The notes under the pieces are model-generated. The model made no database searches and was not told the origin of the DNA. It saw only the letters and a list, made by a program, of their open reading frames with translations. A stretch of DNA of 11,836 nt from Candidatus Altarchaeota archaeon. GTDB taxonomy: Archaea > SpSt-1190. The translations under genes and the position numbers were made by a program. The stretch lies in NCBI GenBank assembly GCA_030590165.1, contig JAUUZA010000020.1:1-11836 (forward strand), given 5' to 3'. Position 1 is the stretch's first letter. Each line of letters opens with the position of its first letter. Positions 2,494 through 7,156 of the stretch are shown piece after piece.

Positions 2494-3483
2494 ATGAAAA
2501 CTGCCATGTTTCAGAAAAAAATTGACGGAAAAATAATGTGTGAACTTTGTCCTCATATGTGTCTTTTAGATGAAGGTGAAATTGGAAAATGTAATGTTCG
2601 TCAAAATCGTAAAGGAATCTTAAGAAGTCTAAATTATGGACATATTATTTCCAGAGCAATAGACCCAATTGAAAAAAAACCTTTATTTCATTTCTTCCCC
2701 GGTTCTTCAATATATAGTATTGCCGCATCAGGTTGTAATTTACATTGTAAATTTTGTCAAAATCATGAAATTAGTCAAAAATTTATTGAAAGTGATAAAT
2801 TAATTACACCTCTTGAAATAGTGAATGATGCACTAAAACATGGGTGTAAATCAATTGCATACACATATACAGAACCGACGATTTTTTTTGAATTTGCATT
2901 TGAAACTATGAAACTTGCTAAAGAAAAAGGACTGAAGAATATTTGGGTTAGTAATGGCTACATTAATCCTCGCCCACTCAAAAAAATATTACCTCTTCTT
3001 GATGCCGCAAATATTGATTTAAAAGGGGATTCAAAATTTTATGAAGAAATTAGTGAAGGAAAAATTAAACCTGTAATAAACACCATCAAAACTTTATTTA
3101 AAAAACAAGTATGGGTTGAAGTAACTAATTTACTCATTACTGATTTGAATGATTCAGAAGAACAAATTAAATTTATAGTAAATACTATTAGTAATATTTC
3201 AAATGAAATTCCATTACATTTCTCAAAATATCATTCATCCTATAAACTCAATAAAGAACAAACCTCATTAGAAACATTAAAACGAGCTATAATAATTGCA
3301 AAAGAAAAATTAACTTTTGTTTATGGAGGAAATATTAGGGGACAAGGTCTTGAAAATACTCGTTGTCCAAATTGTGGTTTTGTCATTATAATTAGGGATA
3401 GAGACCAAGTTTCAAGTTTTCTAGGAAAAGATAAAACCTGTCCAAAATGTCATGAAACTATTAAAATTGTCGGAAATTTGTAG
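2494..3483 (+). CDS. amrS: AmmeMemoRadiSam system radical SAM enzyme
   Basis: A 329-residue radical SAM protein of the PflA-like (COG1180) type that occurs with MEMO and AMMECR1 proteins. The cluster motif CNLHCKFC at residues 81-88 (C81, C85, C88) would bind a [4Fe-4S] cluster with SAM. An N-terminal cysteine group (C16, C19, C23, C33: CELCPHMC, GKCNVR) and a C-terminal zinc ribbon (C291, C294, C316, C319: CPNC...CPKC) are typical of AmrS. Other family segments are YTYTEPTIFFE, WVSNGYI, NIDLKG and HFSKYHSSYKL. The reaction is not firmly established. It is full length with all cysteines present, but neither MEMO nor AMMECR1 is in the window. The ATG at 2494 has no SD; a weak TTAAAG at 2467-2472 could be box A of a leaderless mRNA. 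Confidence 0.93.
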   Translation: MKTAMFQKKIDGKIMCELCPHMCLLDEGEIGKCNVRQNRKGILRSLNYGHIISRAIDPIEKKPLFHFFPGSSIYSIAASGCNLHCKFCQNHEISQKFIESDKLITPLEIVNDALKHGCKSIAYTYTEPTIFFEFAFETMKLAKEKGLKNIWVSNGYINPRPLKKILPLLDAANIDLKGDSKFYEEISEGKIKPVINTIKTLFKKQVWVEVTNLLITDLNDSEEQIKFIVNTISNISNEIPLHFSKYHSSYKLNKEQTSLETLKRAIIIAKEKLTFVYGGNIRGQGLENTRCPNCGFVIIIRDRDQVSSFLGKDKTCPKCHETIKIVGNL

Positions 3484-3517: not shown

Positions 3518-3907
3518 ATGATACAAGCGAGATTTATAGTGGAGTCTCAAGGTAAACCTAAGAGTTTTGTTGAAAACTCTCTAAAAAAACATATTGAAAA
3601 ATTAAAAACCTTGAAAGGTGCAAATTTATATGATATTAAATTTGAACCAACTGAAGAGATAGATGGAATTTTTTCCTCTCTTGCAGATGTCGGAGTAAAA
3701 GCTGAAAATTTTGAAATATTCTTCACACTCTTAATGGGACTTGCTCCAACTGCAGTAATTGTTGAAAAACCAGCTAAAATTGAAGTAGAATTGCGTGAAA
3801 TTCAAAATATTACAAATGATACTATCCAAATGTTTCATGCTTTTGCACAAGCAAATCATTCACTAAGAATGAAACTTCAAACAATACCAAAACATAAGCA
3901 CCCTTGA
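3518..3907 (+). CDS. Small conserved-looking archaeal protein of unknown function
   Basis: A 129-residue soluble protein with no catalytic motif. The pattern is an N-terminal beta strand (IQARFIVESQG), a helix (FVENSLKKHIEKLKTLKG), a further strand, then a segment ending in APTAVIVEKPAKIEVE, and a C-terminal helix (IQNITNDTIQMFHAFAQANHSLRM). This gives a ferredoxin-like or ACT-like impression. It resembles, from memory, small hypothetical proteins common in DPANN archaea, but I cannot name a family. It has no C-terminal Gly-Gly, so it is not an obvious ubiquitin-like partner for the E1-like enzyme downstream. The ATG is supported by a box A at 3489-3497. It ends in tandem stops, TGATGA. Confidence 0.75.
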   Translation: MIQARFIVESQGKPKSFVENSLKKHIEKLKTLKGANLYDIKFEPTEEIDGIFSSLADVGVKAENFEIFFTLLMGLAPTAVIVEKPAKIEVELREIQNITNDTIQMFHAFAQANHSLRMKLQTIPKHKHP

Positions 3908-3975
3908 TGATGGTAAGTGTGGGGATAAACACGAACATAGTGAGGGTAACCATAAATAATGATTAGATAACACGT
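3908..3975 (+). other. GC-richer purine-rich block, possible structured RNA or 3' UTR element
   Basis: This block follows the stop of the 3518 gene and is visibly richer in G than the AT-rich spacer after it. Possible pairings are ATGGT (3910-3914) with ACCAT (3949-3953), enclosing GTGT (3917-3920) with ACAC (3929-3932) around a GGGGATAA loop. GATAAACACG (3924-3933) is almost repeated as GATAACACG (3966-3974). The same bases hold an 18-codon ORF (3910-3966). No known RNA family is recognised and the helices are short. Confidence 0.25.
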
Positions 3976-4056
3976 AGTTTATACGAGAACAGTACTCTTT
4001 CTCCTTATTTCAATATTACTCACATCTTACTTTCATTTTAAATTTTATTTCACTAA

Positions 4057-4062
4057 TTTTTT
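4057..4062 (+). terminator. T-rich tract ending in T6 upstream of the E1-like gene
   Basis: The stretch 4031-4062 is T-rich and ends in six T residues. It lies between the spacer block and the promoter at 4084, a reasonable place for termination of the 3518 transcript. Weak evidence. Confidence 0.3.
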
Positions 4063-4083
4063 AAAAACCAACGTAAAGAACAA

Positions 4084-4092
4084 TTTAATAAA
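4084..4092 (+). promoter_or_regulatory. Box A of the E1-like gene (leaderless)
   Basis: TTTAATAAA centred 25 bases before the ATG at 4113, with no SD sequence. It indicates that the E1-like gene has its own promoter and is not simply read through from upstream. Confidence 0.5.
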
Positions 4093-4112
4093 TCTACACT
4101 ACTTATTAAAAT

Positions 4113-5222
4113 ATGGATAAAAACATAAATTTTGATAAAAAATATTATGTAAGAAAAGGTATTGAAATATACGAGGAAACCAATAAAAAAATTCATTTTT
4201 CTTCGCCTTATACTTGTGATAAATACTATGTTTATGACATGGAAAAAAATATAAATATAATTCTTAATCTTTCAAAAAGTAAAAGTTTAAGAGAAGTTAT
4301 TCGCGAACTAAATTATTCTGATTCAGACCTAAATCTCCCTAAATTAGAAAAAACTTTTATTTTTCTTATAGAAAATGAAATAATTTCAGATACCTCTTTT
4401 AATTCTTCTTTAAGTGAGGAAGAAATTGAATATTATTCAAGAAATATTTTTCATTTAAAATATTTATTCAACCAAAATGGTTTTGAATTACAAGAAAAAC
4501 TTAAGAGCAAAATAATATGTGTCGTCGGGCTGGGTGGTTCAGGTACTGCCTTATTGACGTCTCTTATTGGTTTAGGTATTGGAGAAATAAGATTGATTGA
4601 TTTTGATAATATTGCTTCACATAATTTACCTAGACAATTTTTTTATGAATATAAAGATATAGGAAAATTTAAAACCGAAGTAATGAAAGAACGTATAAAA
4701 AATCTCAATCCTTTCATAAATGTAAAAACCCTTAATTTAAAAATTACAAAAAAAGATAATTCAAAATTAACAGAATTCACTAAAGGTTGTGATTTAATAA
4801 TAAATGCCGCAGACGAACCAAGTTATACGGAGGTACTACATTATTTACAAAATATTTGTTTCAAAAATAAAGTACCTTTTATGGGGTCTCCTTCAACTGA
4901 AGGATTTATTCCACCACTCGTTGTCCCTGGAAAAACTTCGTGTATTAAATGTATGACAAAAGAAAATCCCTTGTTTCTTGATGAAAGTTATGGGGACACT
5001 ACATCAAAACTAAATAGATTTTTATGGAATCCTTTAAGAGCAGTTCCTTATTCTTTTGGAGAAGGGATTGCCATAGTTACTAAAGAAATTTTAGAATTTT
5101 TACTCTTCAAAAAATCTATTTTTCTAAATCATTTTAGGTCAACTAAGGGTGAAATGTTTTTTGTCCCAAAAAGAAAAGATTGCGAATGTAATTTGATTAC
5201 AAAGAGTGAACTCTCAGATTAA
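4113..5222 (+). CDS. MccB-like E1 (ThiF/MoeB-fold) adenylating enzyme with N-terminal RRE-like domain
   Basis: A 369-residue E1-family enzyme. Residues 1-95 look like a small winged or PqqD-like peptide-binding (RRE) domain. YSRN (108-111) and LQEKLKSK lead into the ATP site GLGGSG (139-144), IRLIDFDNI (159-167; D163, D165), NLPRQ (171-175), DIGKFKTEV (182-190) and NAADEP (D234). VPGKTSCIKC (C277, C280) with CEC (C357, C359) would bind structural zinc. This order, the YSRN, GIGEI and VPGKT segments, and the length recall microcin C7 MccB (about 350 residues), which adenylates the C-terminal Asn of a heptapeptide. By family it should adenylate a peptide or protein C-terminus. UbaA/MoeB-type sulfur carriers are the alternative, but they lack the N-terminal domain. 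No precursor, exporter or modification gene is evident nearby. Its stop shares TTAA with topA. Confidence 0.85.
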   Translation: MDKNINFDKKYYVRKGIEIYEETNKKIHFSSPYTCDKYYVYDMEKNINIILNLSKSKSLREVIRELNYSDSDLNLPKLEKTFIFLIENEIISDTSFNSSLSEEEIEYYSRNIFHLKYLFNQNGFELQEKLKSKIICVVGLGGSGTALLTSLIGLGIGEIRLIDFDNIASHNLPRQFFYEYKDIGKFKTEVMKERIKNLNPFINVKTLNLKITKKDNSKLTEFTKGCDLIINAADEPSYTEVLHYLQNICFKNKVPFMGSPSTEGFIPPLVVPGKTSCIKCMTKENPLFLDESYGDTTSKLNRFLWNPLRAVPYSFGEGIAIVTKEILEFLLFKKSIFLNHFRSTKGEMFFVPKRKDCECNLITKSELSD

Positions 5223-7156
5223 GCAAATCCATGTTCCATACACAAACTAAAGTGTGCGTCTTTTCTTTTGATGTCTATCATTTTTCTTTTACATTTTGAA
5301 CAAGTTTTGTCAAGAATTTTCATTGTTCCTCTTTGAGGCAAACCCCAACTCTTACCACATTTGAAGCATTTTGCATATCTTTTATTATTCATAGATTTAA
5401 GTGCGTAAATTGTCCCACCACATTCACATTCCCCTGCATTCTTTGCACCCTTTGGTGGTTTTTGTTCAACCCTTTTTACTGAAACATCTTTAAACCCACT
5501 TAAAAGCTTAGTTAATCTTACTTTTGATTCTTCAATTATTTTTTCTTTTTTGATTTTTCCCTTACTAACATCATCCATCTTTTTCTCAAATTCATGGGTT
5601 AATTCAATTGAAACAACTTCAGGTGCGGCATCCTCAAGTAAGGAAATAACACTTTCCCCTAATTCAGTCACTTGAATACTTTTTTCTTCAATATACTTTC
5701 TGTCATAGAGCCGTTGAATAATATCTGCTCTTGTTGCCTTAGTTCCTAAATTAATTTTTTCCATTAATTTCAAAAGACCAGCAGCAGAATATCTCTTTGG
5801 TGGTCTTTTTTGAACTCGTTTAAGTTCAAAATAATCAACAATAATTTTATCACCTTTTTTCACCTTTGGTGTTTCAGTTTCTTCTAATCCAGCAGGATAA
5901 TTTTTAGTGTATCCTTTAACTAAAGTTTTTCTTCCTTCAATAGTGAATGAATATTTTGAAATATTAAATATAATTTTTGTACTTTCTCTAATTGCATCTT
6001 CACCAAAGGTTGCCATAAATCTTCGTGCAATTAAATCATACAACTTCATTTCTTTTGGTTCTCTGTCTCTTGGAATTGTTCCAGTAGGATAAATTGCTGG
6101 ATGTGCAGGGTCTGTTTTTTTACCTTCATGTGCCTTCTTCCCAATTAGCTCTTTAGCAAAGGAATAAACCTTTGTAAGGCTCTGTAAAATTGCTTTAATG
6201 TCTAATTCTTTTGGTAATTGCTGACTCGAGGTTCTTGGATAACTGATAATCCCGTCCTCATATAATTTTTGGGCCAATTGTAGTGTCACCTTTGGAGTAT
6301 ACTTCAATACTCTACTTGCTTCAGTTTGTAAATCAGTAAGATTGAAAGGTGGTGGCGGACTCAATATTTTCTTATTTTTCTTAACTTCTTCAACAATTGC
6401 AGGAGAGACTAGTGAATTAAAAATCTCAAAAGCTTTTTTCATATCTTCAGTTTCAGGGCCCTTTGCCAGAAATCCTTTTATCTTCGCTAAAATCTTAAAA
6501 AGATAAAAACTTTTGAATTTTGTAATTTCTCTTTCACGGTCAGTTAATATTTTCAAAGTTGGGCCTTGTACTCTTCCAGTACTAAGAACCATAAAGTTTC
6601 CGCTTTTTTTATAAGTATGAATGAGTGCTCGACTCAAATTTATTCCCCAAAACCAATCAAGATAATGTCGAAGAAGCCCTGCTTCAATCATCCCACTTTC
6701 ATATTGATTATGAAAATGTGCTTCATCAAATGATTTGCGCAATTCATTAGGAGTGAGTGTTGAAAATTTCATTTTCTTTGCATTCTTTAATTTCTCATTC
6801 ATTGCAAATTTTAAAATATTAAATCCAATAACCCCGCCTTCAATATCATAATCTGTTGCAATAATAATTTCACTTGCTGATTTTGAAAGTTCAGTTAAAT
6901 TATTGACATAAGACCGAGAATATTCAAACCCTTTTTTTAAATAAGACGGCTTCCACACTACATCAAAAATTGGAAAATCATATCCTTCTCTCCCAGGAAC
7001 AAGGCCATAAACATGTCCTACTGCCGAAGCAACTACAATAGACCCACCATCAACTTCATAATAATAGGATGTTCCCCCTTTCTTTGTTCTAACATCGCCC
7101 AAGGCTTCTGCAATCTTTTTAGCAGCCTTTGGTTTTTCTGCGATGATGAGTATCAT
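5219..7156 (-). CDS. topA: DNA topoisomerase I, archaeal type IA
   Basis: A 645-residue type IA topoisomerase that relaxes negatively supercoiled DNA by single-strand passage. The TOPRIM domain starts at the N-terminus (ILIIAEKPKAAKKIAEAL, E7), with the metal-binding acidic triad in TDYDIEGG (D102, D104, E106). The active-site tyrosine is Y306 in GIISYPRTSS, followed by HPAIYPTG (352-359) and GTKATRADII (471-480). Two zinc-finger-like clusters close the protein: C577, C579, C597, C600 and C619, C622, C639 with H642. Every domain is present. The ATG at 7156 has no SD; ATTAATAT (7177-7184 on the plus strand) is placed as box A. It lies 37 bases after the GyrI-like gene on the same strand. Its stop overlaps that of the convergent E1-like gene by four bases. 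Confidence 0.96.
   Translation of the reverse strand: MILIIAEKPKAAKKIAEALGDVRTKKGGTSYYYEVDGGSIVVASAVGHVYGLVPGREGYDFPIFDVVWKPSYLKKGFEYSRSYVNNLTELSKSASEIIIATDYDIEGGVIGFNILKFAMNEKLKNAKKMKFSTLTPNELRKSFDEAHFHNQYESGMIEAGLLRHYLDWFWGINLSRALIHTYKKSGNFMVLSTGRVQGPTLKILTDREREITKFKSFYLFKILAKIKGFLAKGPETEDMKKAFEIFNSLVSPAIVEEVKKNKKILSPPPPFNLTDLQTEASRVLKYTPKVTLQLAQKLYEDGIISYPRTSSQQLPKELDIKAILQSLTKVYSFAKELIGKKAHEGKKTDPAHPAIYPTGTIPRDREPKEMKLYDLIARRFMATFGEDAIRESTKIIFNISKYSFTIEGRKTLVKGYTKNYPAGLEETETPKVKKGDKIIVDYFELKRVQKRPPKRYSAAGLLKLMEKINLGTKATRADIIQRLYDRKYIEEKSIQVTELGESVISLLEDAAPEVVSIELTHEFEKKMDDVSKGKIKKEKIIEESKVRLTKLLSGFKDVSVKRVEQKPPKGAKNAGECECGGTIYALKSMNNKRYAKCFKCGKSWGLPQRGTMKILDKTCSKCKRKMIDIKRKDAHFSLCMEHGFA

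Follow-up and report, generated by a model that had tools for sequence, protein, structure and literature searches.

An archaeal RRE-ThiF adenylyltransferase of the MccB/PaaA kind in a lineage-specific insertion, and a candidate peptide operon around related enzymes in other archaea

The product of MccB proper is a peptidyl-nucleotide whose N-P bond is on Asn, and that of PaaA a bicyclic Glu-derived core. Fusions of an RRE to a ThiF domain, the kind to which both belong, are known from bacteria, where about 27,400 candidates have been counted (PMC12150305), and the characterised RRE-ThiFs hold a leader by the RRE, adenylate a carboxylate and let a nucleophile close the product (PMC12250964, PMC12150305). 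The 2025 review of RRE-ThiFs contains no word beginning with "archae" (PMC12250964), and "ThiF" is absent from the 2025 survey of archaeal RiPPs, which names the YcaO, radical-SAM, lanthipeptide and lasso classes (PMC12144867). No report of archaeal RRE-ThiF members was found in the open-licence literature. The enzyme kind is known from bacteria and its occurrence in archaea was apparently unexpected; the most novel outcome of the present analysis appears to be the peptide operon described below. The window, that is, the whole stretch of 11,836 bases that was analysed, opens contig C36 in an archaeal genome of 724 kb (64 contigs, 87.6% complete).

Domain make-up and kinship of the window protein

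The following features of the gene were recognised.

4113..5222, + strand: RRE-ThiF E1-like adenylyltransferase of the MccB/PaaA kind, 369 aa (ORF, PF00899, PDB relatives, trees)
4113..4397, + strand: RRE-like N-terminal domain, residues 1-95, expected to be a leader-peptide-binding winged helix (hhalign to the bacterial RRE-ThiF profile)
4401..5219, + strand: ThiF/E1 adenylation domain, residues 97-369 (key residues identical in all or nearly all rows of alignments A1 and A2)

The frame at 4113-5222 starts with ATG and comprises 369 codons, and its product belongs to the RRE-ThiF proteins of the MccB/PaaA kind. In the Pfam search, ThiF (PF00899) was the sole match above the cut-off (E 7e-41, residues 119-285). 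A phmmer search against the PDB ranked MccB first (2.3e-25, residues 74-314) and PaaA second (2.2e-20), followed by ubiquitin E1s (best 4e-18), E. coli MoeB (1.5e-16) and ThiF (2.5e-14), and the NCBIfam equivalog cut-offs for ThiF (102 of 275 bits), MoeB (87.5 of 377) and UbaA (68 of 450) were missed by far. With the RRE-ThiF profile A2, of whose 12 rows the window protein is one, the match was full-length (positions 4-367). The MccB motifs quoted in the original prediction were all located, namely Y108-S-R110-N, GIGEIRLID (155-163), N171-L-P-R174-Q175, DIGKFK187TEV and VPGKTSCIKC (with C277 and C280). Scans of viral contigs with the window, Niallia, Lactiplantibacillus and MccB proteins and with a three-sequence alignment returned no relatives, and a scan of genome contigs gave TcdA-type matches only.

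The ThiF domain carries the finger residue R110, the loop G139-x-GG-x-G144, D163/D165, N171, R174, Q175, K187 and D234, together with the zinc cysteines C277, C280, C357 and C359 in a CxxC/CxC arrangement, in which C359 completes the set. In the RRE-ThiF alignment G139-G144, D165, N171, R174, Q175, K187, D234, C277, C280 and C357 were invariant. The corresponding Arg and Lys are required for the activity of PaaA, as is the Lys in IndF, and equivalents of the K, R and Q are required or involved in these two enzymes (PMC12250964, PMC12150305). Because the catalytic residues are invariant and needed in PaaA and IndF, the intact ATP-site and zinc residues suggest that the window E1 is an active enzyme. 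With regard to the TOMM cyclodehydratase partners (SagC/ocin-ThiF), degenerate ThiFs that act with YcaO, the ATP site of the window protein is intact, and no YcaO was found among the ten window proteins scanned with Pfam.

For the N-terminus, a profile (A5) was made of ten bacterial RRE-ThiF N-termini of ~100 residues each, with the window protein left out; against the PDB it matched the RRE of PaaA (4.8e-9) and, more weakly, MusD (0.004) and LynD (0.08). The first 103 residues of the window protein aligned to A5 in hhalign with a score of 31.1, a probability of 74% and P 2.7e-5, a score reached by 0 of 300 shuffles (best 27.9). In a control of 250 ORF N-termini the window ranked first after the training sequences, the next being another RRE-ThiF, and in a plain hmmsearch with A5 against 40,002 sequences, almost exclusively shuffles, it took second place. 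These modest profile matches supported the RRE-like N-terminus claimed in the original prediction. The PqqD Pfam model did not match this N-terminus, which likewise gave no direct match to the RREs of the archaeal operon described below. Single-sequence AlphaFold2 models were unusable (pLDDT 31 for the whole protein, 48 for residues 1-103).

Only the ThiF part entered the trees, so that the RRE cannot drive the placement. One of 61 rows comprised RRE-ThiFs, archaeal MoeB-like proteins, E. coli MoeB, ThiF and TcdA, archaeal ubiquitin-type E1s and a ThiF-ThiI fusion from the same genome as the window. In both this and a 67-row tree the window protein fell into the RRE-ThiF clade with support 100/98, along with 15 or 21 other RRE-ThiFs, respectively, apart from the MoeB/ThiF/UbaA-type enzymes and the ThiF-ThiI fusion. 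Together with the PDB ranking, the trees bore out the greater closeness to MccB/PaaA than to MoeB/ThiF/UbaA, and a position inside archaeal UbaA/MoeB, against which the prediction was to be checked, was not seen; AU tests that grouped the window with MoeB/ThiF sets gave p values of 0.065 to 0.165, and 0.114, and thus did not formally reject such a grouping. Because of these non-significant tests and of the long branches of most RRE-ThiF rows, the window included, the placement is well supported rather than proven.

The insertion and the search for partners

The surroundings of the gene are made up as follows.

2494..3483, + strand: radical SAM protein, at the left of the syntenic block (PF04055; syntenic in five family relatives)
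3518..3907, + strand: conserved 129-aa protein, directly adjoining the insertion on its left (syntenic in 5 relatives, directly before the topoisomerase)
3904..3966, + strand: sole short + strand ORF upstream, MMVSVGINTNIVRVTINND, 18-20 codons, overlapping the stop of the 129-aa gene (putative peptide)
3908..4112, no strand: 205-bp spacer, part of the insertion (comparison with relatives)
5219..7156, - strand: type IA topoisomerase, adjoining the insertion on its right in convergent orientation (PF01131, 9.5e-112; syntenic)

The order GltX, radical SAM protein, 129-aa protein, topoisomerase I was uninterrupted in all five family relatives, one of which has its topoisomerase gene cut by the end of a contig; in these relatives the 129-aa gene and the convergent topoisomerase gene are 0 to ~60 bp apart. 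When compared with these five, the window alone carries the 1.3-kb insert, consisting of the E1 gene and the 205-bp spacer, and no second full-length homolog of the E1 was detected in ten genomes of the phylum. The E1 gene is hence a lineage-specific gain, most simply by horizontal transfer. No clear mobile-element repeats were found around the insertion, and Rfam gave no match on the window. The GC3 of the gene (0.163) is like that of its neighbours, and its kinship and neighbours agreed with the archaeal origin that had been predicted for the genome. A second stretch unique to the window, 1226-2493, separates GltX from the radical SAM gene; in 3 of the 5 relatives these two genes are side by side. 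The stretch holds two AT-rich ORFs of unknown function (89 and 218 aa), the latter of which contains DFSKLxxEL...S-ELLxKL as an internal repeat and matches PHROG 38821 weakly (0.001).

As for the predicted promoter of its own, the TATA-like TTTAATAAAT at 4084-4093, centred ~25 nt upstream of the ATG (by eye only), is present, although in DNA this A+T-rich it does not count as evidence. The absence of a known partner among the housekeeping genes was correctly anticipated within the window, as judged by Pfam: no precursor, peptidase, transporter or immunity gene adjoins the E1. A short ORF ending in Asn, of the kind that the original prediction suggested looking for, did not turn up in the 205-bp upstream spacer, where the only + strand ORF (3904..3966) ends in NND and showed no homology or conservation. 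No homolog of the precursor type of the archaeal operon (T[SN]I[KM]YWM) was found in the window. A RiPP precursor thus cannot be assigned to the window E1; its gene may lie elsewhere in the genome or have been lost. Such a gene usually accompanies RRE-ThiFs of RiPP pathways, although it does not belong to what defines the enzyme. As a candidate peptide for ATP-pyrophosphate exchange with the window E1, MVSVGINTNIVRVTINND was named.

The source genome (87.6% complete) gave no match to the ThiS/MoaD family (PF02597), a model that matched in 11 of 14 control genomes. The PqqD Pfam model, a strict one with matches in only 3 of 14 controls, found nothing there, and a TraB-like search found nothing in the ten genomes of the phylum, a set lacking a positive control. 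The genome does encode a separate 647-aa ThiF-ThiI fusion (L026:4008-5951, contig C11) of a MoeB/ThiF-type E1 and the tRNA 4-thiouridine synthase ThiI, which serves ordinary sulfur transfer. Related ThiF parts occur in the same family, in G006 and G002 with open frames of ~640-650 aa; the frame in G005 has 293 aa.

A peptide-Tiki-E1 gene order in other archaea

Profile A2 run over 394 archaea returned one other full-length RRE-ThiF (G212), and over 371 genomes of the phylum of G212, at a strict limit, two more (G706 and G635); a profile of these three, run over 200 genomes of one order, added six further homologs. The upstream DNA could be read at eight loci, and at seven of these (G212, G706, G635, G833, G829, G808 and G792) the RRE-ThiF gene is preceded by those of a short peptide (44-55 aa) and of a Tiki/TraB-like protein of ~195 aa, in this order. 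G857 has both enzymes without the T[SN]I[KM]YWM peptide, and the fragment in G683 was too short to be judged and was left out of the count. The operon lies at the following positions.

L115:3796-5537, - strand: archaeal operon
L116:3817-5562, - strand: archaeal operon
L080:2443-4230, - strand: archaeal operon
L119-L122: archaeal operon, further loci

All seven short ORFs end in T[SN]I[KM]YWM and have a conserved Y-x-G-hydrophobic segment ahead of this ending; in the three first found the codon comparison revealed synonymous changes. The ending YWM* occurred 13 times among 61,683 stop codons of the collected DNA, every time in these seven genes or in duplicate copies of their loci. The ~195-aa protein gave weak but recurrent matches to the Tiki superfamily (TraB/PrgY/GumN or ChaN), the best with E 0.0006 and none reaching its Pfam cut-off. 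The N-termini of the operon E1s matched the bacterial RRE profile with 84% probability (P 7.5e-6), and the zinc cysteines are absent from the G706 and G635 enzymes and kept in those of G212 and the window. A sister relationship between the window E1 and the operon E1s was neither supported nor rejected (AU p 0.36).

From its gene content, this arrangement looks like a RiPP operon, with a precursor, a putative peptidase and a leader-binding E1. The invariant C-terminal Met would be the acyl donor, and Thr or Tyr would be likelier nucleophiles than Lys, since Lys is not invariant (Met in G808). The idea of an archaeal RiPP thus gained support in the relatives, whose RRE-ThiFs adjoin a conserved short peptide, although no precursor could be assigned at the window locus itself. 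We tentatively propose, at somewhat less than even odds, that archaea have at least two apparently undescribed RRE-ThiF RiPP-like kinds, one a laterally acquired orphan as in the window, the other an operon with the T[SN]I[KM]YWM precursor, in which the Met carboxylate might be activated to yield a ring, for example with the invariant Thr or Tyr, or a peptidyl-nucleotide. If true, the intact archaeal member and, chiefly, the peptide-Tiki-E1 operon would bring a further class of modified peptides to small-genome archaea, about whose chemical interactions hardly anything is known. The operon peptides are short, synthesizable test substrates, and the modification of peptides by RRE-ThiF enzymes in archaea can now be put to the test.

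Several further loci were noted in the course of the searches. Archaeal proteins of family f6 (~444 aa), considered as full-length RRE-ThiFs, were rejected on account of an N-terminus that is ubiquitin-like rather than RRE (by eye); L029:1237-2571 and its f6 relatives appear to be carrier and activator in one, an E1 fused to a MoaD/ThiS-type fold ending in ...VAGGSEL (by eye). L081:3176-5182 and L082:3819-6313 look like archaeal ubiquitin-type cassettes with an E1 (~335 aa) beside an E2-like protein and, in L081, also a small zinc-binding RING-like protein (by eye). Among bacteria, L027:2411-8679 (Niallia taxi pMEGANia) is an unannotated, likely peptide cassette comprising a LytTR-type regulator pair, an RRE-ThiF, a membrane protein with an HExxH-like motif and an ABC transporter (by eye), and L041:215-4723 (Thermus thermophilus pTHTHE1601) is a candidate peptide-modification cluster of a thermophile, in which an RRE-ThiF comes directly behind two SagB/ThcOx dehydrogenases and ahead of a MATE exporter.

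Proposed function, alternatives and known systems

We consider it probable, at roughly 0.7, that the window gene, acquired horizontally between the 129-aa gene and topoisomerase I, encodes a functional RRE-ThiF that activates peptides. The N-terminal RRE of this enzyme would hold a short ribosomal peptide by its leader, and the C-terminus of the peptide would thread into the ATP site of an E1 dimer, where the terminal (or a side-chain) carboxylate would be adenylated; a nucleophile of the peptide or the nucleotide would then yield a macrocycle or a peptidyl-nucleotide. The specifically MccB-like peptidyl-nucleotide chemistry of the original prediction found no support, for RRE-ThiFs also make other products, among them thiolactones, indolylamides and pantocin-type rings. 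Bacterial relatives of the enzyme often adjoin transporters or peptidases.

The kept E1 core and zinc cysteines would also suit an E1 that activates a sulfur carrier or ubiquitin-like protein, as MoeB, ThiF or UbaA do, and whose N-terminus was extended independently, and the AU tests stop short of formally rejecting it. We nevertheless regard this function as unlikely: the best matches and the tree point to RRE-ThiFs, the N-terminus matches an RRE, the scores fall far short of the equivalog cut-offs for MoeB, ThiF and UbaA, and the genome, where no ThiS/MoaD was found, has another E1, fused to ThiI. Slightly less probable still is a decaying orphan, a former RiPP enzyme that lost its cassette partners on transfer and is now devoid of function, as might be read from an insert lacking a partner, from its presence in 1 of the 10 phylum genomes examined and from its long branch; against such decay stand the open frame, the full set of intact active-site residues and a GC3 like that of the neighbours.

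An E1 of a defence-type conjugation system (CD-NTase-associated E1-E2 or similar) is very improbable. PADLOC E1-E2 models do match the E1 core (best 5e-19), but mostly within the shared ThiF core, and no E2, JAB or CD-NTase gene neighbours the E1 in the window. A better fit is PHROG 19840 (3e-28, residues 54-287), a family whose 367 positions correspond to the length of the window protein.

Among known systems, the SAMP-activating UbaA/MoeB/ThiF enzymes have the E1 adenylation core in common with the window protein, but lack the RRE and fall into separate tree clades. The ring-forming bacterial RRE-ThiFs IndF, GrcB and EnfB (PMC12150305, PMC12250964) resemble it by architecture, and have an adjacent precursor gene and usually a peptidase or transporter, none of which adjoins the window E1. 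PaaA of pantocin A (PDB 5ff5), the second-best PDB match, shares the RRE and ThiF domains and the R and K of the ATP site, whereas the PaaP-like precursor and the PaaB dioxygenase are missing at the window. MccB of microcin C7 (PDB 6om4, 3h5n) likewise has partners not found in the window, namely an MccA-like heptapeptide ending in Asn, the MccC exporter and MccE/F immunity, and differs from the window protein, whose host is archaeal, in that the two are only ~25-30% identical. It is nonetheless the best PDB match, with the same RRE and ThiF plan, the zinc cysteines and the shared motifs YSRN, GIGEI-LID, NL-RQ, DIGK-KTEV and VPGKT-C-x2-C.
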